NCBI GenBank assembly: GCA_002162815.1
Contig: MAAT01000067.1
Location: 24,547-88,546, forward strand
Origin: Gammaproteobacteria bacterium 53_120_T64
Lineage (GTDB): Bacteria; Pseudomonadota; Gammaproteobacteria; Pseudomonadales; Porticoccaceae
Direction: 5' to 3'
DNA length: 64,000 bases
Both the position numbers and the translations under genes were made by a program. How positions within the stretch are numbered: position 1 is the stretch's first letter; each line of letters opens with the position of its first letter. A model generated the notes under the pieces. The model searched no databases and was not told the DNA's origin. It was given only the letters and a program-made list of their open reading frames with translations. Shown in pieces: positions 9,476 through 40,635 of this stretch.

Positions 9476-10852
9476 TCAGCTCGTCGCTGCTTTTAGTAAA
9501 TCGTCGAGCATTCTGTCCAGGTGGTCGAGGGTGTTGCAGGTTTTGGCCATGTGGCAGTAGGGCTTGTATTTATACATTACCGAATCGCCGGCATTCCAGA
9601 AGGTCGTCGGCTCGGGGTTGAGCCAGATAACGCGTTTGGCGCGCAGGTGCAGGGTTTGCATCACCTCTGTGCGTGGAGCGAGGAAATTGTTGCGGGCATC
9701 GCCGAGGATGAGCACGGTGGTTTTGTTGTCGATAGCGTCCATGCACTGGTCTTCAAAGTCGAGCAGGGTGGTGCCGTAGTCGGAGCCGCCCATGCCGTGG
9801 TCGGCCATAATTTTGTCAATCGCCTGTTCAACCGGGTACTTCTCAAAAATATCTTTCACCGGGATTAGATTGCCAGTAAACACATAGCTATCGATGCGCT
9901 GCATGACGTCGTTGAGGCTGTGTAGGAACAGCAGCAGGAAGCGCGCATAGGACTGCACCGAGCCGCTAATATCGCACATCACCAGTAGGCGGGGTTTGTC
10001 GATGTACTTGGTCTTCCAGTAGGTTTCAAACATCACGCCGTCGTAGGCGACATTGCGGCGCAGGGTTTTGCGAAAATCGAGCTGGCCACGTTTGTCCTGC
10101 TTCTTCTTTTTTGAATACTGGGTGCTGAGGCGCTTCGCCATCTTGCGTACCAGGTCGTGCATGACGTGAAAGTCGCGCTGCTCGATATTCGATAGCTTGC
10201 TGCTCTTGAGGTGGTCTTCGCGCAGGTTGCGGGTGGCATTGCGCCCATACATAGATAGCTGTTGCTCGACAAAATCTTTGACGCCCTCGGCCAGGAACTC
10301 TTTGGCATTTCTCAGCTCACCCGCCTGGGCAATACTGGAGGGGCAGTCGCCCTTGCCCATGGCGGCGATATCATTTTGCAGGTCGCGGAGGCCCATCTTC
10401 TGCATGATTTTCTGCGCATAGAGGCTCTTTTGGGTAAAAAACCAGATATCGGTGAGACCGACTTCGCGAGCGGCCTTCTTCATTTCGATGGCAAGGCTGG
10501 CGGTGTCGCCCTCCAGCAGCATTTTGGCGAGCTCTGATTGTGCCTGCGGTGCCTCGCTTTGGGCCTGTTGTGGCTCGCTTGCCTCATCGCTGGCGGAGGC
10601 TGTGTTGTTGCTGTGCGGGTCGTTGGCGGCGCTGAATGTGTCGAAGCTGAAGAACTGCTCGAAACAATCGGCGACCAAATCTTGCTCGGTTTCTGATTTT
10701 GCCAGGCTGACCTGAAAGGCATTTTTCAGGATGCTGCGATCAGAATAGCCGACAAGGGCCACGGTACGGCTGGTTTCAATGGTATCGGAGGGCGATACAT
10801 TGATGCCGGCTGCGCGGATGACTTTGTAAAAATCTTCGAGGGTTTGCTGCAT
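9476..10852 (-). CDS. VWA-domain (CoxE-like) protein
   Basis: 458 residues. The C-terminal half is a CoxE-type von Willebrand A domain with an intact metal-ion-dependent adhesion site (DISGSVQS) and a second acidic loop (GDARNN). The N-terminal half is helical with an Ala/Gln/Ser-rich linker. Proteins of this type work with MoxR-family AAA+ ATPases in assembly or metal insertion for large enzymes; that ATPase is encoded immediately upstream (56-base gap), so the two form one operon. Start ATG 10852 has GAGGA ahead of it. The client enzyme is not shown by the sequence; the neighbouring copper monooxygenase is one candidate, with no direct proof. Confidence 0.85.
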   Translation of the reverse strand: MQQTLEDFYKVIRAAGINVSPSDTIETSRTVALVGYSDRSILKNAFQVSLAKSETEQDLVADCFEQFFSFDTFSAANDPHSNNTASASDEASEPQQAQSEAPQAQSELAKMLLEGDTASLAIEMKKAAREVGLTDIWFFTQKSLYAQKIMQKMGLRDLQNDIAAMGKGDCPSSIAQAGELRNAKEFLAEGVKDFVEQQLSMYGRNATRNLREDHLKSSKLSNIEQRDFHVMHDLVRKMAKRLSTQYSKKKKQDKRGQLDFRKTLRRNVAYDGVMFETYWKTKYIDKPRLLVMCDISGSVQSYARFLLLFLHSLNDVMQRIDSYVFTGNLIPVKDIFEKYPVEQAIDKIMADHGMGGSDYGTTLLDFEDQCMDAIDNKTTVLILGDARNNFLAPRTEVMQTLHLRAKRVIWLNPEPTTFWNAGDSVMYKYKPYCHMAKTCNTLDHLDRMLDDLLKAATS

Positions 10853-10908: not shown

Positions 10909-11859
10909 TTAGCGCCCTGAGCGCTTATGAGCCTTGTTAATAAAGGTGCGCAGGTGGTCGCCCATGGCATCGATATCGGTCTCAAATTTTAGCAGCACGT
11001 TGAGGGTCTGCTTCACCATCGCCGGCTCGAGTTGCTCGCTGTGGAGGAGGAGCAGGGTTTTTGCCCAGTCGATGGTTTCTGAGATTGACGGCACTTTCTT
11101 GAGGTCAAGTTCCCTCACTTGTTGCACGAAGCTGACCACCTCTTTGCGCAGGGTGTCGGAGAGCTCGGGTACACGGCTGGTCAAAATACGGCTTTCGAGC
11201 TTTTCGTCCGGGTAGGGTACATATAGATGTAGGCAGCGCCGCTTGAGGGCATCACTCAGCTCGCGGCTATTGTTACTGGTGAGAAAAACCAGCGGCTTAA
11301 TTTTCGCCTTGATGGTGCCGAGCTCGGGAATGGAAACCTGAAATTCGGAGAGCACTTCGAGCAGGAAGGCTTCAAACTCGGGGTCGGACTTGTCCACCTC
11401 ATCAATTAGCAGTACACAGCCGAGTTCTTCGTGCAGCGCCTTATAAAGGGGGCGAGGCTCGAGGAAGGCTTCGGAGAAGAAGAGGTCGTCGTGGTTGTGG
11501 ATACGTTCCATCGACTGTTCGAGCCCACTGGCACCCTCTAACAGTTCGCCGAGCTTGTCTTTTAAAAGCTGGGTATACAGCAGCTGCTTGGCGTATTTCC
11601 ACTCGTACAGTGCCTTGGACTCATCCAACCCCTCGTAGCATTGCAGGCGAACTAAGGGCACGTCGAGGATTTGCGCGGTGGTCTTGGCGAGTTCGGTTTT
11701 ACCGACACCAGCGGGACCTTCGACCATCACCGGTTTTTGTAGGTTGTGGGCGATGTAGACACAGGTGGCGATCTGCTCGCTACAAATGTACTGAGCGGCT
11801 TCAAAGCGTTGCTGGATATCGTCTACCGAAGTGAATTTGTCTTTATAAAGTTCTTTCAT
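10909..11859 (-). CDS. MoxR-family AAA+ ATPase
   Basis: 316 residues. Walker A is GPAGVGKT (residues 48-55), Walker B is LLIDEVDKSD, and sensor 1 is FLTSNN with the arginine-rich ALKRRCLHLYV segment. This matches the CoxD/MoxR branch of AAA+ proteins, cytoplasmic chaperone-like ATPases that remodel or metallate enzyme complexes together with a VWA partner, here the next gene. The start is ATG 11859 with only a weak ribosome-binding site. It is separated by 37 bases from the acyl-CoA dehydrogenase gene on the same strand, so the three may be co-transcribed. Confidence 0.9.
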   Translation of the reverse strand: MKELYKDKFTSVDDIQQRFEAAQYICSEQIATCVYIAHNLQKPVMVEGPAGVGKTELAKTTAQILDVPLVRLQCYEGLDESKALYEWKYAKQLLYTQLLKDKLGELLEGASGLEQSMERIHNHDDLFFSEAFLEPRPLYKALHEELGCVLLIDEVDKSDPEFEAFLLEVLSEFQVSIPELGTIKAKIKPLVFLTSNNSRELSDALKRRCLHLYVPYPDEKLESRILTSRVPELSDTLRKEVVSFVQQVRELDLKKVPSISETIDWAKTLLLLHSEQLEPAMVKQTLNVLLKFETDIDAMGDHLRTFINKAHKRSGR

Positions 11860-11896: not shown

Positions 11897-13021
11897 CTAG
11901 CCTTTGTGGCCTTGGTCGAATAAAAAGCGCTCTGCTAGTGCGCTGGTGCGGGCGGCTGTAGCTTGGCGGCCAATATGGCTCAGTGTGTCTATATCGGCGG
12001 CGAGTGTGCAAAGGCCGGGATACTGGTCATGCCAATCGAGCAGGCTGGCTTGTACTTGCCTCACAACAGACCGGAAACCAACAATAAGGGGTGTTAGGTC
12101 TGCTGAGATGTGTTGTTGATCGAGCTTGCTGGCAGCCAGTATACCCAATTCTTTGGCCGTTTCTGTCAGGCAGAGTAGCTCGCCGAGTTGATGCATGTCT
12201 AAGGACTTGTTGCAGGATGAACTGGCGCTCGCTAAATAGTCGAGTTGGGCTTGTATCGCACCGGCGATGGGCGCCAGCATCAAGGTATCCTCGAGGGTGC
12301 GCATGGGTAGTGATATTTCGGTAAAGGCCCGGCCCGGCGTACCGATTAGTGTGTCGCTAGGGGTTCGACAGTCAGTAAAGACAATATTGCAGTGACTGCT
12401 CGGCGCTAAGCCCTTAATGTCGTGGGGAGGTAGGCGCTTTAGGCCCGGGCTATCGGTGGGTATAAGGAAGGCTGAGTAGTGTTTGCGCTGGCGATCCTGT
12501 TCGGTGATAGCCAGCACAATGAGCCGGTCAGCGTAGGGGCCGTGGCTAACAAAGGCTTTTTCGCCGTTGAGAATATAATGTCGCCCCTGTTTTATCGCCG
12601 TGCAGCTCAAGTGTTTGGGATGAGCGCCGACATCGGGCTCTGAAATGGCTAGGGCACAGAGGGAATCACCATTGAGAATGGCCTCAATATAATCGGAGTG
12701 GTTATTACTTAATGTACGTAGAAAATGACATTTAAGGAGCTGGCCGAGCCAAGTCATTGTCAGCCCAAGTGACTGGTGAGTACGAGTCATATTGTGGCCA
12801 GTATGGGCAATGGGATGGCAGGGCAGTTGGTTAAGGGCTTTGCCGGTGTCGCCAGTGCGAGGCATAAAGTGGTGAAGTAGGTTTTGGGCGGCGAGGTTTT
12901 TTAAGAACAGATTCGGCAGAGATATGGCCGGGGGCTTCTTTACCTCATGACTTTGCTTGGCTTGAGGGGGGGCGATGAAGGGCAAGAATTTAGCGATTGC
13001 TTGGATTGGTGGCTGTGTCAT
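11897..13021 (-). CDS. Acyl-CoA dehydrogenase-like protein
   Basis: 374 residues with the acyl-CoA dehydrogenase fold: an N-terminal helical domain, the middle beta domain with ALAISEPDVGAHP and YILNGEKAFVSHG, and a helical C-terminal domain. It would oxidise an acyl-CoA with FAD, passing electrons to ETF, or act as an atypical paralogue; the N-terminus is unusually Pro/His-rich and the catalytic glutamate is not obvious to me. It starts at ATG 13021 and runs divergently from the copper monooxygenase operon across a 367-base gap. That position is compatible with a role in oxidising the acids derived from hydroxylated hydrocarbons, which is inference. Confidence 0.8.
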   Translation of the reverse strand: MTQPPIQAIAKFLPFIAPPQAKQSHEVKKPPAISLPNLFLKNLAAQNLLHHFMPRTGDTGKALNQLPCHPIAHTGHNMTRTHQSLGLTMTWLGQLLKCHFLRTLSNNHSDYIEAILNGDSLCALAISEPDVGAHPKHLSCTAIKQGRHYILNGEKAFVSHGPYADRLIVLAITEQDRQRKHYSAFLIPTDSPGLKRLPPHDIKGLAPSSHCNIVFTDCRTPSDTLIGTPGRAFTEISLPMRTLEDTLMLAPIAGAIQAQLDYLASASSSCNKSLDMHQLGELLCLTETAKELGILAASKLDQQHISADLTPLIVGFRSVVRQVQASLLDWHDQYPGLCTLAADIDTLSHIGRQATAARTSALAERFLFDQGHKG

Positions 13022-13388: not shown

Positions 13389-14183
13389 ATGGCTAGAGAA
13401 AATACTCAATCCATTGCTTTGGACGGTAGCGCAGACAGCAAGGTTGCCGGGCACTTTAAGCGCAATCGTTTTGCCTATGTATTTGGAGCAATTGTTATTG
13501 CTGCAGGTACTGCTATTCGAATTTATTTGGATACTATGGGTTTCACCGTTGGTACCGATTACTACTCCGAGGAGTTTCAGAAGTACTGGATGCCTGTTCT
13601 CTACGGTGAGTTGATTCTCCTTAGTTCGTTTACCATTATTCTTTCTGTCTATTGCTGGATGACCCGCGAAACCGATGCCAGCAGTATTAGTAAAGAGTTG
13701 GAATTGAGCCGTTACTGGAAGTTGCTCGGTATCTTTACCGTGATGGGTATCTGGGCCGGTTGTGTTGCCTCTAACGCCGTTGAGTCCGACGCCGCTTGGC
13801 ACCAGGTGACGATTCGGGATACCGATTTCACGCCAACTCACATTGTCATCTTCTATTTTGCACTGCCATTTTTGACGGCCATGCTGATTCCTGCCTTTAT
13901 CTGGACTCACACGCGTATCCCCGCCTACATGAACAAGATCTCCGTGCCTTTCCTGGCGGTTGTCTGCGGTATTTTGATGATTATGCCTAACTATGGCTTT
14001 AATGAGTGGGGTCACACCTTCTTCTACGCTGAAGAGTTGTTTGCGGCGCCGATCCACTACGGCTTTGTATTCTTAGGTTGGTCCTTGTTCTTCTTGGTGC
14101 CACTGGCGATGCAGCTGATTGGTAACATGGCTCGTCTGATTGCTGAGACCACAGCGGAAGATTACAATCCCGCAGCCGAGTAA
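13389..14183 (+). CDS. pmoC: Copper membrane monooxygenase subunit C (PmoC/AmoC family)
   Basis: 264 residues, six or so membrane helices. PmoC carries the essential metal sites of particulate methane/ammonia/hydrocarbon monooxygenases. The first site is intact: D134, H138 and H151 in DAAWHQ and DFTPTH, with exactly the spacing of D156/H160/H173 of Methylococcus capsulatus (numbering from memory). The CuD-site ligands are also present: N205, H209 and H223 in NEWGH and APIHYGF. The start is ATG 13389; an upstream extension of the frame lacks homology. It heads the operon pmoC-A-B, the canonical order for CuMMOs in proteobacteria. It is not a truncated orphan pmoC. The substrate (methane, ammonia, ethane to butane, ethylene) cannot be fixed from this subunit. 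Confidence 0.95.
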   Translation: MARENTQSIALDGSADSKVAGHFKRNRFAYVFGAIVIAAGTAIRIYLDTMGFTVGTDYYSEEFQKYWMPVLYGELILLSSFTIILSVYCWMTRETDASSISKELELSRYWKLLGIFTVMGIWAGCVASNAVESDAAWHQVTIRDTDFTPTHIVIFYFALPFLTAMLIPAFIWTHTRIPAYMNKISVPFLAVVCGILMIMPNYGFNEWGHTFFYAEELFAAPIHYGFVFLGWSLFFLVPLAMQLIGNMARLIAETTAEDYNPAAE

Positions 14184-14207
14184 GTCTTAGTAGTTCTGCA
14201 GTATCCG

Positions 14208-14246
14208 ATTATCCCCGTAAGCTCTCAGTTTGCGGGGATAATTTTT
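14208..14246 (+). terminator. Intercistronic hairpin between pmoC and pmoA
   Basis: A perfect 10-bp stem, ATTATCCCCG (14208-14217) with CGGGGATAAT (14233-14242), loop of 15 bases, followed by TTTTTCT. It has the form of an intrinsic terminator but lies inside the operon, so it probably attenuates transcription or protects the pmoC message after processing. Confidence 0.7.
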
Positions 14247-14302
14247 CTCCAAACCCTAAATCTATGCTTTGAAAATATTCTTTTTGTACGAGAGGTATCG
14301 TT

Positions 14303-15097
14303 ATGAGTGAAGCACAATCCACAGGGCTGTCAGACGTAGAAGTTAAGGCAAGGCAACTTGACCTTAAGTCTCTCGACAATCCGCGGGCAATGAAGTTATA
14401 CCGTCGCTTTGACGGCATTATTATTCTTGTCTTATTTACCTTCCTGGTGCTCGGTGTGCAGATTCAGTTCACCCTGACTGCCGGTGACTGGGACTATTGG
14501 ATCGATTGGCGAGATCGTCGTTGGTGGCCTCTAGTGGCACCCTTTTCGTTGTTGTTGTTTATCGCACCCTTTACCTACGGTATCTGGGAGCGCGTACGTC
14601 TGCCGATTATGGCAACAGCTGTCACGACCTTGTTGTGCCTGGTGTCCTGGTTGAGCCGCTACTTGAATTTTTACGAGTTCACCCACTTTCCCTTATCGTT
14701 TACCTTTCCGTCGACCTATATCGGTCTCGGCATATTGCTGGATTGTGCCTTGGCGATTAGCCGCAGTCTGATTGTTTCAACCTTGATCGGCGGCGGATTG
14801 TTTGGCGCCTTGGTCTACCCGATAAACTGGTCCTTTATGGCGCCTTACAAGGTGCCTGTCGAGTTTAACGGTATGTTGATGTCGGTAGCTGACATGATGG
14901 GTTATCAATACATTAGAACGACGACGCCTGAATACCTGCGCATTATCGAGGAATCTACCCTGCGTACCTTTGGTGGGTCGGTGACGCCTTTGACCGCTGT
15001 GTTTTCGGCCCTGTGTGGGATGGTGGTTTATGCGGCCTTCCTGTGGGTTGGTTACAAGATTAACGGCCTGGATAAATTCACCAAGCGCATTGTTTAG
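14303..15097 (+). CDS. pmoA: Copper membrane monooxygenase subunit A (PmoA/AmoA/hydrocarbon monooxygenase family)
   Basis: 264 residues with about seven membrane helices. Family landmarks are GDWDYW-x-DW-x-DRRWW near residue 60, IWERVRLP, the proline-rich FPSTYIG segment, VPVEFNGMLMSVAD and TPEYLRI, then STLRTFG. The subunit packs against PmoB and PmoC in the membrane trimer. The variant GDWDYW differs from GDWDFW of methane oxidisers and nitrifiers, and AVFSAL replaces the usual AFFSAF, both of which put it outside the classical clades. Start ATG 14303 follows GAGAGG. It lies 119 bases after pmoC with a hairpin between, and 22 bases before pmoB. Function as a hydrocarbon monooxygenase subunit is inferred. 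Confidence 0.95.
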   Translation: MSEAQSTGLSDVEVKARQLDLKSLDNPRAMKLYRRFDGIIILVLFTFLVLGVQIQFTLTAGDWDYWIDWRDRRWWPLVAPFSLLLFIAPFTYGIWERVRLPIMATAVTTLLCLVSWLSRYLNFYEFTHFPLSFTFPSTYIGLGILLDCALAISRSLIVSTLIGGGLFGALVYPINWSFMAPYKVPVEFNGMLMSVADMMGYQYIRTTTPEYLRIIEESTLRTFGGSVTPLTAVFSALCGMVVYAAFLWVGYKINGLDKFTKRIV

Positions 15098-15119
15098 ACG
15101 ACGTTGGAGTAAGCAGTTA

Positions 15120-16370
15120 ATGAAAAGATTAATAGCGAGAAAAACAGGTCTCACGGCGTTGCTGGCTGGCCTGGTGATGGTTTTACTGGCGGGCGATGTC
15201 ATGGCCCACGGTGAGCGAGCGCAATTGGCGAGTATGCGTATGCGTACCGTCCATTGGTTTGATACCAAGGTAGAGCCTTTGAATGTAAAGGTTGGCGATA
15301 TCGTTACGGTAACGGGTAAGTTGGTGACCTCCGAGTGGTGGCCCAAGCATATGCCCAGCATTGAGGAGACGGTGTACCTGAATATCGGCGTGCCGGGTCC
15401 AACCTTTCTGAGGTTGCACTCTGAGGTTAATGGTGTGCCGATGATGCGCTCTACAGCTTTCCCTTTGGGTAAAGTCTATGAGTACAAAACGGTACTGCGG
15501 GCACGTATTGCCGGCCGCTACCACGTTCACCCCATTTTAAATGTTAAGGATGCGGGTTCTCTGGTCGACAAGGGTACCTGGTTGGAAGTGGCGGAAGCTG
15601 ACGATGGCGCGCCGTTCGTCAACGAAATTACCACTTTGACCGGTGAAACGATCAACTTGGAAACCTACGGTTTGGATGGGGTTTTTACCTGGCACTTGAT
15701 CTGGATAGCAATGGGTGTCGCCTACCTACTGTATTGGCTGATTCGTAAAGAGCTGTTTATACCGCGCTTTATTCGTATTCGTCATTTGGGCAGCGATCGG
15801 GCCAATGAGCTGATGACCAAGAAAGACTTTGTGGTGAGTAGTTTGTTTTTTACCGTGTCTTTGGCTTTGATACTCGGTGGTTACCTTTGGGCGGAACACA
15901 AATACCCCATTACCATTCCCTTGCAAACGGGCTTGGTAGAGGTTGAGCCGATCGATATTCCGACGGGTGGTCTGGAGGTTGAGGTGGATCACGCGACTTA
16001 TGATCTTGCGGGTCGCAGCTTAAGTATGCAGTTACAGTTGACCAACAATAGTGCGGGCCCACTGCGCATTGGTGAGTTCTTAACCGCCAACATTCGCTTC
16101 CTGAACCCGGATGTTAATGAGGGTGAGATTTACGAAGGCGAAGAAATGGTCTCTAAAGATGGTTTGACTGTCTCTGTCGATACGATTCAACCGGGTCAAA
16201 CGGTCGATGTGGAGTTAGTTGCTTCGGACGCTTTGTGGGAGCAATATCGTATGACCGGTTTGATTCATGATCCGGATAGCCGTTTTGCCGGTATGATCTT
16301 CTACTACGATGAGAACGGCGAACGATTTTTCCAGGAAGTGGGTGGCGCAGTACTCCCGAACTTCTTTTGA
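15120..16370 (+). CDS. pmoB: Copper membrane monooxygenase subunit B (PmoB family)
   Basis: 416 residues: a signal peptide cleaved at MA-H so that H30 becomes the mature N-terminus, an N-terminal cupredoxin domain, two membrane helices (about 183-203 and 235-255) and a C-terminal cupredoxin domain. The copper-B ligands are all present: H30 and the pair H135 and H137 in RYHVHP. H45 in RTVHWFD matches His48 of M. capsulatus, whereas the position of its His72 seems to be V69, as in many relatives. Start ATG 15120 follows GGAG. The intact ligands argue for a functional enzyme. The C-terminal domain (GGLEVEVDHATYDLAGRSL) is divergent from methanotroph PmoB but matches the family layout. Confidence 0.95.
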   Translation: MKRLIARKTGLTALLAGLVMVLLAGDVMAHGERAQLASMRMRTVHWFDTKVEPLNVKVGDIVTVTGKLVTSEWWPKHMPSIEETVYLNIGVPGPTFLRLHSEVNGVPMMRSTAFPLGKVYEYKTVLRARIAGRYHVHPILNVKDAGSLVDKGTWLEVAEADDGAPFVNEITTLTGETINLETYGLDGVFTWHLIWIAMGVAYLLYWLIRKELFIPRFIRIRHLGSDRANELMTKKDFVVSSLFFTVSLALILGGYLWAEHKYPITIPLQTGLVEVEPIDIPTGGLEVEVDHATYDLAGRSLSMQLQLTNNSAGPLRIGEFLTANIRFLNPDVNEGEIYEGEEMVSKDGLTVSVDTIQPGQTVDVELVASDALWEQYRMTGLIHDPDSRFAGMIFYYDENGERFFQEVGGAVLPNFF

Positions 16371-16408: not shown

Positions 16409-17053
16409 ATGTTGGCGAGACAGGTAGCACGAACTTTTCGATCTATAATTTCAAGTTTGATCATGGTTTGGGTGGCCTGTGGCGCCAGCACCGTATTTGC
16501 TCACGGGGGTGTGTCGGTAGAAGATGATGTATGTCTTATTAAGATCGATAGATATAAAGCGCATTTTACCGGCTATCTACCTCGGGAGAGAGCAACCCAA
16601 GAGTTTTGTGAAGATATCCCGATAGCCACCCAAAGTATTTTTGTTATCGATTACATCAGTGATGAACTGCGTGAGATGGAGCTTGATTTTCGCGTGATCC
16701 GCGATGTCAATGAGCTCGGTGTTACCGCAGTTCTCGCCGATCTTGGTGGTGAAGAGGCCATAAAGGCGGCGACGGTTTACTACGCTGAGCCCAAGCGTTA
16801 TCACAAAGGGGTGATGAATATTCGCCACACCTTTACGCAGAACGGCGGCTATATTGGTATTGTGAATGCGAACCACTTGGAAACGGGCCTAAAATATACG
16901 TCGGTGTTTCCCTTTTCTGTGGGGCAGGTTAGCTACGCTAATTATATCCGTTATTTCCTCGCCCTATTTGCGGCATGTGGCGTGTTTATTTATGCAGGCG
17001 GTCGCGGTCTTGTTTTTAAGGTTAAGCCACCACGTAGTGGAAGGCGAGCTTAG
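16409..17053 (+). CDS. Membrane-anchored periplasmic HGGV protein, conserved, unknown function
   Basis: 214 residues, 38 bases after pmoB and 12 before the multicopper oxidase gene, so clearly part of the operon. A signal peptide should be cleaved at FA-H, leaving H32 as residue 1 of HGGVSVEDD. The periplasmic domain has C42, H52 in AHFTGY and C67 in EFCEDIP, and one membrane helix lies near residues 181-203 with a basic cytoplasmic tail. I remember similar HFTGY...EFCEDIP proteins in other proteobacteria but no assigned function. It is not PmoD: I see no CuA-like motif. A role in copper binding or monooxygenase assembly is inferred from position and from the mature N-terminal histidine. Confidence 0.8.
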   Translation: MLARQVARTFRSIISSLIMVWVACGASTVFAHGGVSVEDDVCLIKIDRYKAHFTGYLPRERATQEFCEDIPIATQSIFVIDYISDELREMELDFRVIRDVNELGVTAVLADLGGEEAIKAATVYYAEPKRYHKGVMNIRHTFTQNGGYIGIVNANHLETGLKYTSVFPFSVGQVSYANYIRYFLALFAACGVFIYAGGRGLVFKVKPPRSGRRA

Positions 17054-17065
17054 TCAAGGGGCGGT

Positions 17066-18748
17066 ATGACACGGCTGTATCAAGTATTTATTTTATTATT
17101 CTTGCTGCTTATCTTTGCAGCATTGACACCCTGGCAGTGGTATCCCCGAGATTGGCGCGTTTGGTATGCGGATAATTTTGGGGCCAGTGCTTTTCAAGAG
17201 CAGGCGGCAACGATTCCTGCCATTTCTAGCGATAATACGGAAGAGGCTTGTCCGCCCGATATCAAGGGTTGGCGCAAGGCGCAAACGATCGCGGGCATTG
17301 ATGTTTCGGCCTCTTCCAATTGCCTTGCCGACAATCCTCATGCGGTAGCGGCCTTTGTCAAGGGTACCAACAACGTCGGTCATATGACCTTGATGAAGTC
17401 TCGCTTGTCCCCCGATGCGGTGGTCAAAGGGCGAGATCTCGATGGCGATGGTGACCCGGACGAGATTCATATTCGTCTCGAGGTGTTCGAGTTAAATGGT
17501 GGGTCGCCAGATCTCAATGTGCCAGTGACACAGTACGCCATTGCCCCCGGGGTGATGCCGGGCCTTTGGGTGTTTGCACCAAAATCGGCCGGTATGTCAA
17601 CCGAAAATTTTGAGTCGCTAGTGGCGCAGCCGGGTTTGCGTCTACCCTCTCCGGCGATACGTGTCGAGCAGGGCGACAAGGTTATTGTGACCCTCGAAAA
17701 CACCCACTATATGCCCCATACCATTCACTTTCATGGCGTTGACCACCCTTTTCAAACGGCCAGTGGTGAGGGCAATGATGGGGTGCCAGTAATGAGTGAA
17801 ATGCCGGTAATGCCGGGCCAGCAGCGCAGTTATGAAATGCAGCCGCGCCAAGCCGGCACCATGTTTTATCACTGCCATGTCGAGGTGCAGGCCCATGTCT
17901 TAATGGGTTTAAATGGTATGTTTGTGATCGAGGAAAATCGCCCGAATAACTGGGTGCAAACCTTTAATATTGGCGATGGTTTTGTGCGTCACAGTTCGGT
18001 GGCGGTGAAGGAAGAATACGACCGCGAATACGACCTGCACTATCAAGATCTCGATAAAGAGCTGGGTGCGAAAATTCAGCAAACCAACGACCCGCGCCTG
18101 GTAACTCAGCAGATTCACCGCGAATACGATATTAGCCAAGCCGATTTTGAATATTACACTCTCAATGGGCGCTCCTTTCCCTATACGGCAAAGGACTCGC
18201 TGATCGTCACCGCGCCGAATGAAAAGCTCAAGTTGCGAGTGCTCAACGGTGGTAGCGAGGGTGTGGCGATACACACCCACGGTCATAAAGTGACGATCAG
18301 TCACTACGATGGTGTTGAGCATCCCGAGCCCGCGCGCATTACCCGCGATGTGGTGTGGGTTGCCTCGGCTCAGCGAGTGGATCTGGAACTTTCCACCGTA
18401 GATGATGGCCTCCACAGCTATGGTGAGGGCGTTTGGCTAATGCACGATCATCAAGAGAGGGGCGTGACCACTGATGGTTTTGGCCCTGGTGGTAATGTCA
18501 GTGCCATTGTTTACGAGCGTTTCCTGCAGGATGACGGCTGGCCGATGACCTTCGGTATGGCTTGGAAAAATTTCCTGACACCGGGTTTTTACCAGCGTCA
18601 GGAAGATGGCTCTGGGGTGACAGCGTTGTTGCCGGGCGTAGAGGCTAGCGGCCCTTCGAGTTGGCGCTTGTTCGCCATGGCTATACTCGCCGGCCTATTT
18701 GTTGGGATCCTTATCAGCTGGATACTAAAGGGAAGGTCTAATGTTTAG
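17066..18748 (+). CDS. Membrane-anchored two-domain multicopper oxidase
   Basis: 560 residues. An N-terminal helix (about 4-22) and a C-terminal helix (about 536-556) flank two cupredoxin domains. Trinuclear-site histidines are all visible: H221/H223 (HFHG), H269/H271 (HCH), H403/H405/H407 (HTHGH) and H460/H462 (HDH). The only type-1 copper cysteine is C270, with H277 and M280 nearby; the second domain has MHDH instead of HCH. This pattern resembles type-C two-domain oxidases. An Asp-rich loop (DLDGDGDPDE, residues 124-133) looks like a calcium-binding insertion. Such enzymes reduce O2 (or nitrite in relatives) while oxidising a small donor or Cu(I). Operon position suggests a link to copper handling or electron flow for the monooxygenase. 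Confidence 0.88.
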   Translation: MTRLYQVFILLFLLLIFAALTPWQWYPRDWRVWYADNFGASAFQEQAATIPAISSDNTEEACPPDIKGWRKAQTIAGIDVSASSNCLADNPHAVAAFVKGTNNVGHMTLMKSRLSPDAVVKGRDLDGDGDPDEIHIRLEVFELNGGSPDLNVPVTQYAIAPGVMPGLWVFAPKSAGMSTENFESLVAQPGLRLPSPAIRVEQGDKVIVTLENTHYMPHTIHFHGVDHPFQTASGEGNDGVPVMSEMPVMPGQQRSYEMQPRQAGTMFYHCHVEVQAHVLMGLNGMFVIEENRPNNWVQTFNIGDGFVRHSSVAVKEEYDREYDLHYQDLDKELGAKIQQTNDPRLVTQQIHREYDISQADFEYYTLNGRSFPYTAKDSLIVTAPNEKLKLRVLNGGSEGVAIHTHGHKVTISHYDGVEHPEPARITRDVVWVASAQRVDLELSTVDDGLHSYGEGVWLMHDHQERGVTTDGFGPGGNVSAIVYERFLQDDGWPMTFGMAWKNFLTPGFYQRQEDGSGVTALLPGVEASGPSSWRLFAMAILAGLFVGILISWILKGRSNV

Positions 18749-19406
18749 GGCCTGCACTCAGCGCCTATTATCGCCCTTGCTGGGGCTATTGATAAGCCTG
18801 CCGGGCTTTGCGGCCAGCAGCCACCAGCATCACATGCCGGGTATGGTAATGGATGCTACGGGCATGGTGATGGGGGGTAATAGCGATCAGTTACCCGAGG
18901 ACTGTCAGGCTATCTCTGCAGAATACGAGTTTACCGTGTTGGCGGGAACGCGTTTCGCCGAGCCGTATGCGGCGACAGCGTTTGGTTTTGATCAGCATCA
19001 ATGGCAGGTTAAGCCTTGTAGTCGGATTACCATTAATTTCAAAAATGAAGATGACGTGCGCCACCAGTGGATGCTCCACGGTTTGCCGAAGTATCTGTAC
19101 GATCGAGGCATGTTTCATATGGAGGCCTCCGGTGGTTTTGCGCAAACCGGAACTTTTATTGTTCCGAGTGATAATAAAACCTACCTCGTGCATTGTGATA
19201 TTGCCCAGCATATGGAGAAGGGTATGAAGGGGCAGTTAATTGTTGGCACTGGTAGCGGTGATCTTTGGAGTATCCCGGGCGTCACTGCAGATTTTCAGCG
19301 GGAAAGGGTGTCACTCGATAATGGTCAAAAAATAGGCTTGCTATTGTCGGCCCTACTGGCAGCCCTTGCAGGTTTTATAACAATAAAAAAATTCGCCAAA
19401 AAGTAA
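18741..19406 (+). CDS. Membrane-anchored cupredoxin (blue copper protein)
   Basis: 221 residues, overlapping the multicopper oxidase by 8 bases, so probably translationally coupled. A signal peptide precedes a His/Met-rich stretch (SSHQHHMPGM, GMVMGG). The cupredoxin domain spans about residues 60-170 with type-1 copper ligands H108 (VRHQW), C152, H157 and M162 (HCDIAQHMEKGM). A C-terminal helix (about 196-214) and Lys-rich tail anchor it. It most likely shuttles electrons or copper in the periplasm, with the preceding oxidase as partner. The Met/His-rich start could also bind Cu(I) directly. Confidence 0.86.
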   Translation: MFRACTQRLLSPLLGLLISLPGFAASSHQHHMPGMVMDATGMVMGGNSDQLPEDCQAISAEYEFTVLAGTRFAEPYAATAFGFDQHQWQVKPCSRITINFKNEDDVRHQWMLHGLPKYLYDRGMFHMEASGGFAQTGTFIVPSDNKTYLVHCDIAQHMEKGMKGQLIVGTGSGDLWSIPGVTADFQRERVSLDNGQKIGLLLSALLAALAGFITIKKFAKK

Positions 19407-19713: not shown

Positions 19714-22140
19714 TTGGAGACTGCACGCTACCGTCTGTCGAGATATGTCATACATCATCGTTGGGCATCATTGCTGGTTTTTCTGGCTTTGACTATTTTC
19801 TTTGCCGTAGGTATTAGTCGGGTTGAATTGAAAACGATCTTTTCCGATTTGTTACCCAGTACGCATCCTTTTGTGCAAACTTATAAAGACCACCCTAACT
19901 TTGGTAACCCCCTGACCGTTACGGTGATGATCAAGCGCACCGATGGTGAGTCCATTTATAACCCCGAAACCTTGCAAAAAGTTTGGGATATGACTCGCAA
20001 TATCGATTTGATTGCCGGCGTCGATCACGACCAGATTCTCTCTATCACCACTGAAAAAGCCCGCTATGCTCAGGCGACGCCCTTTGGTATCGATAGTCAG
20101 CCGCTGATGGGTGACCACTCGCCACAGACCGAAGCGGAAATGGCTGAGTTTTTAGAGCGCGTCAAAAAATCACCGGGTAGCCGTGCCTTCCTTATCTCTC
20201 ACGATGAAAAAGCGACCATTATTCAGGCGACCTTTATTGAACGTCTGCTCGATTACGGCGTGGTGTTTAACGAAATTCAGGAAAAAATCATCGATGCTGA
20301 ACGCGATGATGCCCACGAGATTCATGTTGCCGGGCAGCCAGTGTTGACGGGTTGGGTGTACTTCTATGAAAAACAAATGCTGCAGATTTTTGGCATAACA
20401 GGCGCGGCGCTGTTAATTTCATTATTCCTGTATATGCGCAATGTGGTTGGCATCGTTGTGCCAGTGGTGACCAGTGTGGTCGCTGCGATATGGGGCTTCG
20501 GTTTTGTGGGCTGGCTTGGCGACCCCATCGAACCACTGATTATGGTGGTGCCGATATTGCTAGTCGCGCGTTCGTTTAGTCATGCGGTGCAGTTTATCGA
20601 GCGCTATTATGAAATTTACTATCACGTTCAGGATAAGAAAAAGTCGGCAGAGATCTGCATGAGCGTGATGATGGCGCCTGGCATACTAGGGATTGTTACC
20701 GATGCCATCGGCCTGTTCTTGATTGCCATTGCACCGATACCGACCATGGAGCGTTTTGCCGTCTTTTGCGGATTCTGGGCTCTGATGCTGGTCCCCACTG
20801 GCGTATTCCTGACGCCCATCTTGTTATCAATGATGCCCAAGCCGAAAAACGTCAACCAAATCATTGGTCTTGATGGCGATCATGCGCTTATTCATGCGGG
20901 CATCAAGCACATGTTGCAAAAGGTCAGCAAGCTAAGCTTTGGTCCCCCCGCAAAAATAACGACCGTCGTGGTTATTGTGCTGTCGGTCTTCGGCCTGTCA
21001 AAAATGCTCGAGTTAAAAATCGGCAACCCGGTAGCGGGCAGTAATCTGCTGTGGAGTGATTCAGAGTACAACGTCGCCATTGCCGAAATTAATAGTCACT
21101 TCCCGGGCTTGAACACCCTGGAGATTATTTTTGAAGTGAAAGAACAGACGCAGCAGCGCTTGCTCAAGCAGGCCGATCCCATCTTTAAGATGACGGAGCT
21201 GCAGCGCATCGTTGAGAGTAGTGACTTCCCACCGGTGGCAACGCTGTCGTTTGCCGATTATTTACCCGAGGCCAACCGTCTGTTCAGTGGCGGTAACCCG
21301 AAGTGGGCACCCTTGGATCACAGCGATATGGCGGTGCAGGCCGCCTCCGGTGCGGTGCTCTTTGGTACCAGTCCGAAGGCCTTTTCCCATGTCACCGACT
21401 TTGTACAGCAGAATGGTACGGTTTCTCTGTGGTATAAGGATAACAAGCAGGAAACTGTCGATGCGGCCCTGGAATCTGTGCGTGCGGCCCTCGATGAAAT
21501 TGGCATCGATCACGATAATTACCGGGTTCGTCTCGGCTCCGGTACGATCGCACTGCAGCAGTCGATTAACGATACCGTCGACCTCTACCAGTGGTACATA
21601 CTTGGTGCCCTAAACCTGGTTATCTTGATCAGTTGTTCGTGGGCCTACCGCTCATTAGTGGCGGGTGTTTTGCTTTTGATACCGGTCAATATGTCTAATG
21701 TTTTTCTGGCAATGTCAATGGTTTATATGGGTGTTGGCCTCGATGTCAATACGCTGCCAATTGCCGCCATCGGCATCGGTGTGGGTATCGATTATGGCAT
21801 TTACCTGCTGAGTCGAATCTGTGAGGAATACCAGGGCTTTAAAGACTACGGCAAAGCCATCTACGCCGCCGTTGCCACCACCGGTAAGGCCATCTTCTTT
21901 ACCGCGGCCATTGTCCTGATCGGCATCCTGCCCTGGTACTTTATGTCCGAGCTGAAGTTCCTCGCCGATATGGGGCTGCTGCTGGTGATGGTGATGTTGA
22001 TCAATATGGTTATTGCCCTGATCGTCGTGCCGCTGTTGGTGTGGTTGATTAAGCCGAAGTTTGTTAGTTCGGAAGATCTTCTGGTCGGCGAAGGTGTCGA
22101 TCTGTCGGAGTATGCAGGAGGGGAAGAATCCCTCAAGTAG
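19714..22140 (+). CDS. MMPL/RND-superfamily transporter
   Basis: 808 residues, twelve membrane helices in two halves, each starting with one helix, a large periplasmic loop and five more helices. The fourth helix of the second half carries GIGVGIDYGIYLLSRI, typical of the MMPL/HpnN-like branch of RND transporters that move lipids and other hydrophobic compounds. The start is TTG 19714, with AAGGGGAAGAG upstream and a normal-looking N-terminus (YRLSRYVIHHRW). It heads a same-strand set with DUF1329, YCF48-like and DUF1302 genes, a recurring combination in hydrophobic-compound metabolism. The transported compound and direction are unknown. Confidence 0.9.
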   Translation: METARYRLSRYVIHHRWASLLVFLALTIFFAVGISRVELKTIFSDLLPSTHPFVQTYKDHPNFGNPLTVTVMIKRTDGESIYNPETLQKVWDMTRNIDLIAGVDHDQILSITTEKARYAQATPFGIDSQPLMGDHSPQTEAEMAEFLERVKKSPGSRAFLISHDEKATIIQATFIERLLDYGVVFNEIQEKIIDAERDDAHEIHVAGQPVLTGWVYFYEKQMLQIFGITGAALLISLFLYMRNVVGIVVPVVTSVVAAIWGFGFVGWLGDPIEPLIMVVPILLVARSFSHAVQFIERYYEIYYHVQDKKKSAEICMSVMMAPGILGIVTDAIGLFLIAIAPIPTMERFAVFCGFWALMLVPTGVFLTPILLSMMPKPKNVNQIIGLDGDHALIHAGIKHMLQKVSKLSFGPPAKITTVVVIVLSVFGLSKMLELKIGNPVAGSNLLWSDSEYNVAIAEINSHFPGLNTLEIIFEVKEQTQQRLLKQADPIFKMTELQRIVESSDFPPVATLSFADYLPEANRLFSGGNPKWAPLDHSDMAVQAASGAVLFGTSPKAFSHVTDFVQQNGTVSLWYKDNKQETVDAALESVRAALDEIGIDHDNYRVRLGSGTIALQQSINDTVDLYQWYILGALNLVILISCSWAYRSLVAGVLLLIPVNMSNVFLAMSMVYMGVGLDVNTLPIAAIGIGVGIDYGIYLLSRICEEYQGFKDYGKAIYAAVATTGKAIFFTAAIVLIGILPWYFMSELKFLADMGLLLVMVMLINMVIALIVVPLLVWLIKPKFVSSEDLLVGEGVDLSEYAGGEESLK

Positions 22141-22230
22141 CGTGAATATGTCAGTGTTTTACAGGGTTTATAAAAAATAGCCCACTAGTGTTTGTTATGT
22201 GGGCTGGAACTAGAATTAGGAGTATGGTTA

Positions 22231-23619
22231 ATGCACATTAAAAAGTATGATTTTGACTACAGCCGTCGGTTTTTTATGGACAAGATGGCCAAAGGCACCA
22301 TGGGTGCAGGTGTTCTCACCTCATTGATGCCGTTGATCGGCAATACAGGTGATATAAGTAAGGCCTACCCCGAAGAGCTGACCAATATTGAAGCTTTCAC
22401 CAAAGGTAAGGTCAAAACCGGCGATATTATCGACGCGAACAATGTTGAATACATTAAAGACTTAATCGACCCCGTCGCTTACCTGCAAATCACCCAAATG
22501 GGTCGCCGCATTCGTATAGCACCCACGACAACAGATGCCACAGAGTTATTCCCTAGGGATTATCTGGAGGCAACCTTGCGCAATCAGGGTAAGGGCGCTT
22601 TTGACGCCAACGGCAATGTTGTCCATAAGCTTGATGGCAAACCTTGGATTGGCGGTGCGGCTTTCCCCGACCCGCAAACAGGCCTTGAAGCCTTTGCCAA
22701 TGTAACGATGAGCTGGGGTCGTCACGACACTGCTGTTTACGCCATTGAAGATAATGATATTGGCCCCGACGGTGATATCGAATACTCCTACAACCTCGGT
22801 TGGTGTGAAAAGAACACCGTCGGCCTGGTCAGCAACCCCGATGGCCCCTATTGGGAAGGTCACGAAGATAAGTTGCGCTACCAGTCGGTTTGGTTTACGG
22901 CACCGAATGATGTTAAAGGCACCAGCTTCCTCAATATCTGGAAATACGATCAGCGCGAATTCCCCGATTTGTTTGGCTACCTGCCCGCCTTTAAACGCGT
23001 GCGTCGCTTCCCAACCAACCAGCGCTTTGAACCGTTGGTACCAGGTATTACTTTCTTCCTCTCTGATGCCTGGGGCGCTGGTGACCCCATGCTGACTTGG
23101 GGCAACTACAAGATTATTGGCCGTGGTCCCTTTCTGGGCTCTCAGTCAGGAACATGGCAGGGCGATCAAGAAAATTGGTCGAAAGATGCAACTTTACACG
23201 GTGGTAAAAAGGGCCTTAACTTCTTTGAGGTTGACTTCCAGCTCTGCCCTGAAGTGCTCGTCATTGAAGCTGAGCCAGTTGGCTTCCCGCGTGCGCCAGT
23301 CAGCAAAAAGCGTATTTGGCTTGACGTGCGTAACATGGCACCTATTGGTTATGTAACCTACGACCGTCGTGGCGAGCTATGGCGTTCATTTGAGGTTGGC
23401 TATAGCCAGCAGAAGAAAGGTGACTTGGCCAACGTGGATGCTAAGGGTAATGCCGAGTGGTCCTGGTCCTACGTACATGCACATGACGTACAGACCAATC
23501 GCTTCTCGCGATTTAACCATGCTAAAAGTGTTAAAGGCGGCCTGCAAACGGCATTTGATACCGAAGATGCCTACGACAAGTACCTGACCATTCAGGCTAT
23601 TCGTCGTCTCGGTAGTTAA
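22231..23619 (+). CDS. DUF1329 periplasmic/outer-membrane-associated protein with twin-arginine signal
   Basis: 462 residues. DUF1329 proteins are LolA/LolB-like folds thought to handle hydrophobic molecules in the periplasm. Family traits are visible in the middle (MSWGRHDTAVYA, SLFNYLR-like blocks replaced by KDLIDPVAYLQI) and near the end (RIWLDVRNMAPIGYVTYDRRGELWR). The N-terminus holds SRRFFMDKMAKG, a good twin-arginine motif followed by a moderately hydrophobic stretch, so export may be folded, via Tat. I start at ATG 22231, 39 bases inside the longest frame, because GGAG lies just ahead. It is flanked by the RND and YCF48-like genes. Confidence 0.88.
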   Translation: MHIKKYDFDYSRRFFMDKMAKGTMGAGVLTSLMPLIGNTGDISKAYPEELTNIEAFTKGKVKTGDIIDANNVEYIKDLIDPVAYLQITQMGRRIRIAPTTTDATELFPRDYLEATLRNQGKGAFDANGNVVHKLDGKPWIGGAAFPDPQTGLEAFANVTMSWGRHDTAVYAIEDNDIGPDGDIEYSYNLGWCEKNTVGLVSNPDGPYWEGHEDKLRYQSVWFTAPNDVKGTSFLNIWKYDQREFPDLFGYLPAFKRVRRFPTNQRFEPLVPGITFFLSDAWGAGDPMLTWGNYKIIGRGPFLGSQSGTWQGDQENWSKDATLHGGKKGLNFFEVDFQLCPEVLVIEAEPVGFPRAPVSKKRIWLDVRNMAPIGYVTYDRRGELWRSFEVGYSQQKKGDLANVDAKGNAEWSWSYVHAHDVQTNRFSRFNHAKSVKGGLQTAFDTEDAYDKYLTIQAIRRLGS

Positions 23620-23645
23620 TTTAAAAAATCTAGACTGGAGTGCAT

Positions 23646-24626
23646 GTGTTTAATTTCAAATTGGTACGTCAATCAATACTAAGCGCTGCACTGTGCGCCG
23701 GCTTCTTGTCAGCCGGTGCCCTGGCTAGTGAGCCCCCCACGGGGGGCATGCTCGACGTAGTGCATCAGGGCATTGTCCACGATGCACTTTACGATGTTTG
23801 TTTTCTCGGCCAGTCTGGGCTTGCCGTGGGTGTCGCAGGTTCAGTGTTGACCACCGATGACGCCGGTTCTAGCTGGCAGAGTGGCGCCGTTGATGTGCCA
23901 TATGCATTGCTAGGTGTCAGCTGTGGCCAGAAAGCCTCCATTGCCGTCGGGCAAGCGGGGCTAATTATGCGCAAAGAGGGTGATGCTGCCTGGGCTCAAG
24001 TCGATTCGGGTACCGACCAGCGCTTACTCTCCGTCAGTGCCAATGAGTCTGGACTTGCCGTTATCGTTGGTGGCTTTGGCACCGTGTTGAAGTCTACCGA
24101 TGCGGGTCAAACGTGGGCGCCCTTAAGTTTCGATTGGGAGGCCATTCTCAACGATTTTTATGAGCCCCATGTCTATGACGTTAGCGTCGCTACTGACGGC
24201 ATTATTACGTTGGTAGGTGAGTTCGATTTAGTGTTGCGTTCAGAAGATCAGGGTGAGACCTGGGCAACCGTCAACAAGGGCGATACATCGCTGTTTGCCC
24301 TGCACTACCGGGATGCCTCAACCGGCTTTTCGGTGGGACAGAACGGTAAGGTGGTGAAGACCGTTGACGGTGGTTTAACGTGGACGGTTTTGCCTGTACC
24401 GACGACAGAAAACCTACTGGATGTCTGGTCTTCAGGCAGTCAGGTCTTAGTCACCGGTATTCGAACCCTGTTGCGCAGTCGCGACGATGGCCTTAATTGG
24501 GAAGTGATTACCGAGGGTGATGTCAGTGTTCAGTGGTATCAGGCCATTGAGGGTGTTGTCGGTGAGGCAGGTACCGATAGTGTCGTAATGGTTGGCCATT
24601 CGGGTCGTGTTATTAATATCAAATAG
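23646..24626 (+). CDS. YCF48-like/BNR-repeat propeller protein
   Basis: 326 residues with a signal peptide (cleavage near ALASE) and repeated Asp-box motifs, among them TDDAGSSW, STDAGQTW, SEDQGETW, TVDGGLTW and SRDDGLNW, one per blade. This is the YCF48/Hcf136-type beta-propeller, here periplasmic. In such clusters it is thought to scaffold the RND transporter and its partners. I prefer the GTG at 23646, five bases after GGAG; the longest frame begins at a GTG that overlaps that site. The preceding stop is 26 bases away, so it is in the same operon. Confidence 0.85.
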   Translation: MFNFKLVRQSILSAALCAGFLSAGALASEPPTGGMLDVVHQGIVHDALYDVCFLGQSGLAVGVAGSVLTTDDAGSSWQSGAVDVPYALLGVSCGQKASIAVGQAGLIMRKEGDAAWAQVDSGTDQRLLSVSANESGLAVIVGGFGTVLKSTDAGQTWAPLSFDWEAILNDFYEPHVYDVSVATDGIITLVGEFDLVLRSEDQGETWATVNKGDTSLFALHYRDASTGFSVGQNGKVVKTVDGGLTWTVLPVPTTENLLDVWSSGSQVLVTGIRTLLRSRDDGLNWEVITEGDVSVQWYQAIEGVVGEAGTDSVVMVGHSGRVINIK

Positions 24627-24661
24627 TCTTGTCCGATCAAAAAATTCTAATGAGGTGCTAG

Positions 24662-24764
24662 CGTGGCGCAATGCCACGTGACGCCCAAGCGGTAGTTAAT
24701 TTATAACGCCATATTTACAGCCCTATTAGGGCTGTCACGAGTTTTTGGGCGCGTCTTTTGCGCC
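24662..24764 (+). promoter_or_regulatory. Three successive hairpins between the YCF48-like and DUF1302 genes
   Basis: CGTGGC/GCCACG (24662-24678), ACAGCCCT/AGGGCTGT (24717-24735, 3-base loop) and GGCGC/GCGCC (24748-24764). The second is followed by CACGAGTTTTT, a poor terminator, and the third by TACTCG. They could set differential expression of the outer-membrane gene by processing or partial termination. Confidence 0.5.
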
Positions 24765-24812
24765 TACTCGTTATCGCATATTAATTATAAATTTTTCATT
24801 AGGAGGTTGGGT

Positions 24813-40269: not shown

Positions 40270-40365
40270 CGTTTGTCTTTGTTTGCTGGAATGGTCCAGC
40301 ATAGCTAGGCTATCTATAAATATGCGTGGGTAGACCTGAATAATGTGCATATTGGAGAACGTAAA

Positions 40366-40635
40366 ATGGCATTAAGTGCAGAAGAGAAAGCAGTAATCGT
40401 TACCGATAACGCCCAGGCAGATGGAGACACTGGTTCTCCCGAAGTGCAGGTGGCGTTGTTGACCGCGAATATCAATAAATTACAAAGCCACTTTACTGGC
40501 AACAAAAAGGACCACCACTCACGTCGTGGTTTGATCCGCATGGTTAACCAGCGTCGAAAGTTACTGGACTACCTGAAGAGTAAAAATGTCGAACGCTACA
40601 CGAAGCTGATTGCGAAGCTCGGATTACGTCGATAA
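40366..40635 (+). CDS. rpsO: 30S ribosomal protein S15
   Basis: 89 residues, the normal length. It shows the family start MALSAEEKA and the rRNA-binding [10 protein letters not shown] block. GGAG sits upstream of ATG 40366. The frame extends 21 bases further 5', which I discard because of the family start. It has its own terminator and precedes pnp, as in E. coli, where S15 and PNPase are jointly processed. Confidence 0.97.

Follow-up and report, generated by a model that had tools for sequence, protein, structure and literature searches.

A copper membrane monooxygenase gene cluster of the Porticoccaceae and its possible link to methylated cycloalkane oxidation

The genome of Gammaproteobacteria bacterium 53_120_T64, a member of the Porticoccaceae, contains a copper membrane monooxygenase (CuMMO) gene cluster, which we analyzed in a 64,000-nucleotide stretch of contig MAAT01000067.1 (hereafter, the window). 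We suggest that the enzyme encoded by its pmoCABD genes likely hydroxylates methylated cycloalkanes, for example methylcyclohexane, at their methyl group, the product then entering ring cleavage through an aliB-badK-badI-badH cluster, and we give this reading a probability of about 0.58. Copper-dependent, O2-driven hydroxylation is predicted, and the substrate and the regiochemistry are inferred. The main argument is one of distribution: the ring-opening cluster tracks pmo through the family, which points to methylated cycloalkanes as the substrate. The genes concerned in the window are the following.

13389-14183, + strand: pmoC, CuMMO subunit C (264 amino acids; Pfam AmoC 3.4e-59)
14303-15097, + strand: pmoA, subunit A with a GDWDYW motif (264 amino acids; Pfam AMO 5.9e-74; PDB PmoA chains 5.7e-60)
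15120-16370, + strand: pmoB, subunit B (416 amino acids; Pfam Monooxygenase_B 1.4e-120; PDB PmoB 2.2e-100)
16409-17053, + strand: pmoD, predicted periplasmic copper protein (214 amino acids; only PDB match 6cpd PmoD, E 1.3e-15)
17066-18748, + strand: two-domain-type multicopper oxidase (560 amino acids; PDB 3g5w 3.3e-31 and 2zwn 5.7e-30, both domains aligned)
18741-19406, + strand: single-domain cupredoxin (221 amino acids; Pfam Cu-oxidase_2 3.2e-06; type 1 copper (T1) motif HCx4Hx4M)

Three subunits with all copper ligands

A previous sequence-only reading of this DNA had announced a complete pmoC-pmoA-pmoB set, and the open reading frames, gene order and Pfam matches bear this out: the three subunit genes are adjacent, in C-A-B order and open throughout (13389-16370), and each matches its CuMMO family in Pfam. 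We re-set the start of pmoB to 15120, the listed open reading frame (ORF) starting at a GTG further upstream. The extent then given to the cluster, 13389-16370, holds for the three subunits but falls short of its end, since pmoD, the oxidase and the cupredoxin genes carry it on to 19406 (16409-19406).

Every metal ligand named in that reading is found at its position. PmoC has the CuC set D134/H138/H151 and the CuD set N205/H209/H223, and PmoB the CuB set H30/H135/H137, in which H30 is the predicted first residue of the mature protein. All nine align with chains of the solved particulate methane monooxygenase (pMMO) and ammonia monooxygenase (AMO), and they are near-invariant among relatives: counting the window, they are kept in 75-76 of 76 PmoC rows and in 78-79 of 79 PmoB rows. 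PmoA is the sole PF02461 match of the genome. Its GDWDYW motif had been pointed out as standing in place of GDWDFW; the motif is real, but its Y belongs to the at-least-90% class in an alignment of 33 relatives, and we rejected this common form as a special mark.

A ring-opening cluster that accompanies pmo

The same genome carries, on one strand, an aliB-type gene, an enoyl-CoA hydratase gene, and badI- and badH-type genes, a probable ring-opening route for cyclohexanecarboxyl-CoA. AliB, BadI and BadH are the top-scoring models for their respective genes, and badK is identified as a generic enoyl-CoA hydratase only. The badI search was prompted by an earlier proposal about cycloalkanes, so that the genomic evidence is a test of this idea and not a blind rediscovery.

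The badI model TIGR03210 matches at full length, with 455-478 bits, in 14 of the 16 pmo-bearing genomes of the family and partially in the other two (G011 and G064); in four relatives devoid of pmo, the best listed score is 129 bits. Using the window genome's own BadI as a query against 112 family genomes, we found an orthologue of at least 80% identity in 15/16 pmo genomes and in 1/96 others (G062); the 16th pmo genome has a fragment, and the match in G066 is only 42% identical. The surroundings of badI were read in 14 further pmo genomes: aliB, badK and badH were each seen in 13, some of these short stretches being ended by the contig. Fisher values ignore relatedness and are not used here as proof.

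An enzyme acting on gaseous alkanes would have no need of such a cluster, the entry compound of which is cyclohexanecarboxylate, and this leads to the methylcycloalkane reading. In the proposed route, the monooxygenase would hydroxylate the methyl group of methylcyclohexane to give cyclohexylmethanol, which dehydrogenases other than the pyrroloquinoline quinone (PQQ) methanol dehydrogenase would convert to cyclohexanecarboxylate. A CoA ligase, putatively AliA or a similar enzyme, would then form cyclohexanecarboxyl-CoA, and AliB, BadK, BadH and BadI would lead from there to pimelyl-CoA and beta-oxidation.

Several observations weigh against this route. The genome's own aliB (548 bits, cut-off 575), badI (455.6, cut-off 467.6) and badH (214.5, cut-off 431) all fall short of the curated equivalog cut-offs, by 12 bits for badI and by half for badH; among the 20 genomes searched, badI passes in only three, all of them pmo genomes. 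AliA is not among the annotated neighbors of the bad cluster, the genome at large not having been searched for it. The cluster lies on a different contig from pmo, and G062 carries badI and the multicopper oxidase, yet no pmoA was found in it. Co-distribution may also reflect shared descent of three genera rather than function. Cyclohexanecarboxylate could be obtained from outside, as naphthenic acids, or arise from longer alkylcyclohexanes, in which case pmo would act on another substrate. This genome also has prpB over cut-off, which would suit short or odd-chain alkanes equally well. Finally, a comparison of alignment positions close to the ligands in PmoC and PmoA established no sign of an enlarged pocket at the level of residues: it revealed differences between clades, for example at PmoC Y202, none of which could be mapped to the cavity.

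Beside the genome's own bad cluster, we also observed four related acyl-CoA dehydrogenase genes in tandem (L143:15612-19901), neighbors being 72-75% identical and the last gene truncated where the stretch read ends.

Relationship to methane, ammonia and short-chain alkane enzymes

For comparative analysis we collected 80 named related loci (L002-L081), each comprising pmo and up to 10 kb on either side; L001, L082, L083 and short frames were left out of trees and counts. The PmoB tree has 66 rows, including AMO and pMMO rows from solved structures and seven of L059-L081. The PmoA tree has 84 rows and no AMO row; L059-L081 were thinned likewise, L036 and L039-L041 were omitted, and 21 additions were chosen out of 206 fetched proteins. 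It replaces an earlier FastTree tree of 282 PmoA rows in which several forks were weak.

In the PmoB tree, the window falls in a 16-row Porticoccaceae-type clade (support 100/100), itself within a 51-row clade of Gamma- and Betaproteobacteria (100/99) that includes Solimonas, Panacagrimonas, Nevskia and Polaromonas. AMO, pMMO and pXMO all fall outside this larger clade, and the solved AMO chains 9leg_B and 9pxf_A branch elsewhere than the window. The PmoA tree gives the same placement: the window clade has 25 rows (100/99) and its sister 35 (99/96), long branches that meet deep in the tree calling for caution. Both trees thus place the window off the methanotroph pMMO and pXMO clades and in a hydrocarbon monooxygenase clade grouped with Porticoccaceae metagenome-assembled genomes (MAGs). 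The window enzyme is related to, and separate from, the methane and ammonia enzymes, with which it shares the same subunits and all CuB, CuC and CuD ligands. Pxm-type loci also differ in gene order (A-B-C, as opposed to C-A-B in the window).

A cryptic methanotroph or nitrifier, with a true methane or ammonia monooxygenase, would account for one result: PmoB exceeds the NCBIfam AmoB_BACT equivalog cut-off (468 versus 336 bits), so that automatic annotation would probably label it wrongly as an ammonia monooxygenase. Against this stand the well-supported position outside AMO, pMMO and pXMO in the PmoB tree and the physiology of the host. In a genome 93.6% complete, no PQQ methanol dehydrogenase was found over cut-off, unlike in methanotrophs bearing pMMO: the best score with TIGR03075 is 41 bits for a cut-off of 480, compared with 764 in a Methylobacter control. 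These 41 bits belong to a 410 amino acid frame, the single PF13360 match of the genome and probably BamB. The dehydrogenase is over cut-off in 5 of the 16 pmo genomes and in one of the seven of the same genus. The hydroxylamine oxidoreductase (HAO) profile PF13447 matched in none of 13 genomes, the controls being equally silent. On the grounds of the two trees and the missing PQQ methanol dehydrogenase, we rejected a methane or ammonia function, which we hold to be very improbable.

Much of the sequence-only reading therefore stands here. Neither methanol dehydrogenase nor HAO was seen among the annotated window proteins, which do not cover every ORF; the genome-wide dehydrogenase search agrees with a host that is no typical methanotroph; the relatives of PmoA are gammaproteobacterial, as was expected of the host; and the PmoB and PmoA trees, proposed there as a check, confirm a position outside the classical clades. 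This position is true without being new, the clade being full of Porticoccaceae MAGs and a 2023 paper on Porticoccaceae and methylated cycloalkanes having appeared.

The closest named relative is the MAG Gammaproteobacteria bacterium 54_18_T64, the PmoA of which is 97% identical and the genome of which reportedly comes from a simulated oil plume. The host is likely a marine oil-degrading bacterium. Within the family, pmoA is present in 16 of 112 genomes and 3 of 14 genera, including all seven genomes of the window's own genus; across a sample of the order, only 9/390 genomes and 5/143 genera have it.

The loci of Solimonas, Panacagrimonas, Polaromonas and Nevskia, which we take to be 'group X', share with the window the pmoCAB order, a pmoD of the same HGG...Cx9H type and a sister position in both trees. 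They differ in PmoA, only 44-54% identical, and in most of them neither the multicopper oxidase nor the cupredoxin was seen. Their kinship brings in a second explanation, in which the window enzyme would be a monooxygenase of short-chain alkanes (C2-C4, perhaps C5), as those of the sister clades presumably are, the bad-ali genes serving imported naphthenic acids. Membership of the same large clade as the Solimonas, Panacagrimonas and Polaromonas enzymes argues for it, as does the prpB gene. In PMC12510462, group X and group-X-like clades are labelled as ethane/ethylene, propane and butane enzymes. Two observations argue against it: the window sequences form a separate sister clade on a long stem, outside the group of Solimonas and Polaromonas enzymes, and BadI tracks pmo through the family. 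We regard this explanation as rather unlikely, if clearly the strongest competitor. The short-chain hydrocarbon monooxygenase put forward from the sequence alone is accordingly not the best reading, given the bad-ali cluster tracking pmo, and short-chain alkanes retain some likelihood on account of prpB.

Thirdly, the enzyme may be a promiscuous hydroxylase that co-oxidizes linear and cyclic C4-C7 alkanes with no single dedicated substrate. The joint presence of prpB and bad-ali in the genome is consistent with such breadth. According to PMC12510462, peptides of two particulate hydrocarbon monooxygenases were found in a Cycloclasticus bloom on n-pentane, one enzyme belonging to a clade of unknown substrate and the other to a clade with ethane-type references. 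These peptides make larger alkanes plausible for the superfamily. We deem such a broad-range enzyme improbable in the window clade.

A copper-handling module downstream of pmoB

PmoD combines a signal peptide, a periplasmic domain with two conserved Cys and a C-terminal transmembrane (TM) helix, the signal peptide and helix being judged by eye; its layout reads ...A|HGGVSVEDDVCx9H...FCEDIP. Its only structural match, the Methylocystis PmoD (6cpd), is of the same family and has the two conserved Cys. The motif differs: the CuA motif Cx7MxHxnC is that of the Methylocystis protein (PMC6189053), whereas the window protein has Cx9HxnC together with an invariant HGG at the predicted N-terminus, and lacks the CuA-forming pattern. 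In PMC6189053, the Cx9HxnC class is described as copper-binding and not CuA-forming, PmoDs of another motif class are said to occur near multicopper oxidase genes, and one section deals with a copper-dependent growth defect upon pmoD disruption.

The HGG...Cx9H arrangement is present in all 43 related PmoD sequences tested, and in all 43 the stretch directly preceding HGG ends in A, G or S. Both features lead us to predict a free N-terminal His after signal cleavage, as at PmoB H30. One PmoD pattern that matched 0/43 sequences and one cupredoxin pattern that matched 1/21 were taken for badly written patterns.

The multicopper oxidase seems, by eye, to be anchored in the membrane at its two ends. 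Its first domain has a T1 motif (HCHVEVQAH..M) together with one half of the trinuclear ligands, and the second domain the other half (HTHGH, MHDH). In alignments with the two-domain oxidases 3g5w and 2zwn, both of its cupredoxin domains are covered and the copper motifs correspond; unlike these, the window protein has some 190 residues ahead of the first stretch that aligns, its apparent TM anchors, and a gene linked to pmoCABD. By regular expression, the second-domain motifs were recovered in 20/24 and 14/24 relatives, low counts to which tight patterns and cut frames may each contribute. The cupredoxin gene overlaps the 3' end of the oxidase gene. Its product has a His/Met-rich N-terminus and, by eye, a C-terminal TM helix; the T1 motif is found in 20 of 21 relatives, and a PDB sequence search with this protein returned no match.

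Among the 80 loci, pmoD matches at 45, the oxidase at 26 and the cupredoxin at 21, in a nested fashion: all oxidase loci have pmoD and all cupredoxin loci have the oxidase. At the sensitivity used, none of the three matched in the 24 methanotroph loci of this set. In the family, the oxidase is matched in 16/16 pmo genomes, partially in some at contig ends, versus 1/96 others. It lies on the same contig as pmoA, within about 4 kb, in 13 of the 16, and on another contig in G011, G064 and G065. The oxidase adjoins its cupredoxin in G062, G064 and G065, which argues that the two travel as a pair. In G062 this pair is located at L162:9270-11809, with no pmo match inside the 20 kb read.

One of the loci counted above, L054 (7875-13244), has pmoCAB of another clade. 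Its cupredoxin, its oxidase (60-63% identical to that of the window) and a fragmentary pmoD are not adjacent to these genes but lie 3-9 kb off on the opposite strand, and may belong to the end of a second pmo set. We dropped this locus as a rearranged copy of the module, since the pmoD match is only partial, at the edge of the locus, and the oxidase lies about 4 kb from pmoB, and did not use it as evidence.

We infer that PmoD, with its predicted N-terminal His and Cx9H, acts together with the oxidase and the cupredoxin as a group of periplasmic copper-handling proteins that would load or protect the monooxygenase. Among the matches listed in a search of the open-access literature, we saw no description of a pmoD-oxidase-cupredoxin unit for hydrocarbon monooxygenases. 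The recurring pmoCABD-oxidase-cupredoxin unit provides a concrete handle on the old question of copper supply to these enzymes.

Prior work and significance

Methylated cycloalkanes are soluble petroleum components. The abstract of the 2023 Porticoccaceae study reportedly puts forward a previously undescribed clade of pmo for methylcyclohexane and methylcyclopentane. A cycloalkane role has thus probably been published already for the Porticoccaceae-type group. According to the title of that study, as cited in PMC13390413, methylated cycloalkanes fuel a Porticoccaceae genus, Ca. Reddybacter gen. nov (Arrington et al. 2023, Environ Microbiol). The nearest named MAGs place the window in the same family as this system, and methylated cycloalkanes would be the fuel of both.

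If CuMMOs initiate the breakdown of methylated cycloalkanes, the substrate range of the superfamily reaches seven-carbon rings. Databases that name such genes methane or ammonia monooxygenases would then mislead surveys, the window PmoB being a case in point since it passes the NCBI AmoB cut-off. More tentatively, and with the balance tilted against the full combination, we may picture a ring-alkane clade for methylcyclohexane and methylcyclopentane, the bulkiest natural CuMMO substrates. It would be served by a six-gene copper unit in which PmoD would load copper by its free N-terminal His, and the oxidase and the His/Met-rich cupredoxin would control Cu(I)/Cu(II). The whole would be wired to an aerobic bad-ali route and to a MoxR/VWA activator.

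Neighboring genes in the window

Six further genes flank the cluster on either side.

9476-10852, - strand: VWA (CoxE-like) partner of the MoxR ATPase (Pfam VWA_CoxE 7.3e-31)
10909-11859, - strand: MoxR-type AAA+ ATPase, divergent from pmoC (NCBIfam MadB 319.8 bits, under the cut-off of 475)
19714-22140, + strand: RND/MMPL transporter, a frequent pmo neighbor in the Porticoccaceae clade
22192-23619, + strand: DUF1329 LolA-like protein, likewise a frequent neighbor
23640-24626, + strand: YCF48-like BNR protein, likewise a frequent neighbor
24807-26753, + strand: DUF1302 protein, which goes with the RND/DUF1329 set (Pfam DUF1302 2.8e-26)

The MoxR/VWA pair is a possible but uncertain activator. 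Of the 15 loci L002-L016, six have MoxR in the vicinity of pmo. In the family, the VWA gene is present in 15/16 pmo genomes and in 2/96 others. Across the order, a homologue occurs in 110 of 390 genomes: all nine with pmo and 101 of the 381 without. This last figure led us to reject the pair as a pmo-specific activator and to retain it as a lead. The VWA gene lies within about 5 kb of pmoA in all seven genomes of the window's genus and on other contigs in the eight remaining pmo genomes that bear it.

Downstream, the RND/MMPL-DUF1329-YCF48-DUF1302 set (19714-26753) follows pmo in much of the clade, with an RND match in 12 of 16 loci (L002-L016 and L052), several of which end early. In L052, the RND, DUF1329 and YCF48 genes are present in inverted orientation upstream of pmo. 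Any role of the RND, DUF1329 and YCF48 genes is uncertain.

Between the MoxR gene and pmoC, 11897-13021 encodes an acyl-CoA-dehydrogenase-like protein, over the Pfam cut-off for the middle domain only. In the six relatives that keep this set, it evolves much faster (62-70% identity) than MoxR and VWA (91-98%). The window also contains an ordinary ribosomal S15 leader at 40306-40422 (Rfam RF00114, 58 bits).

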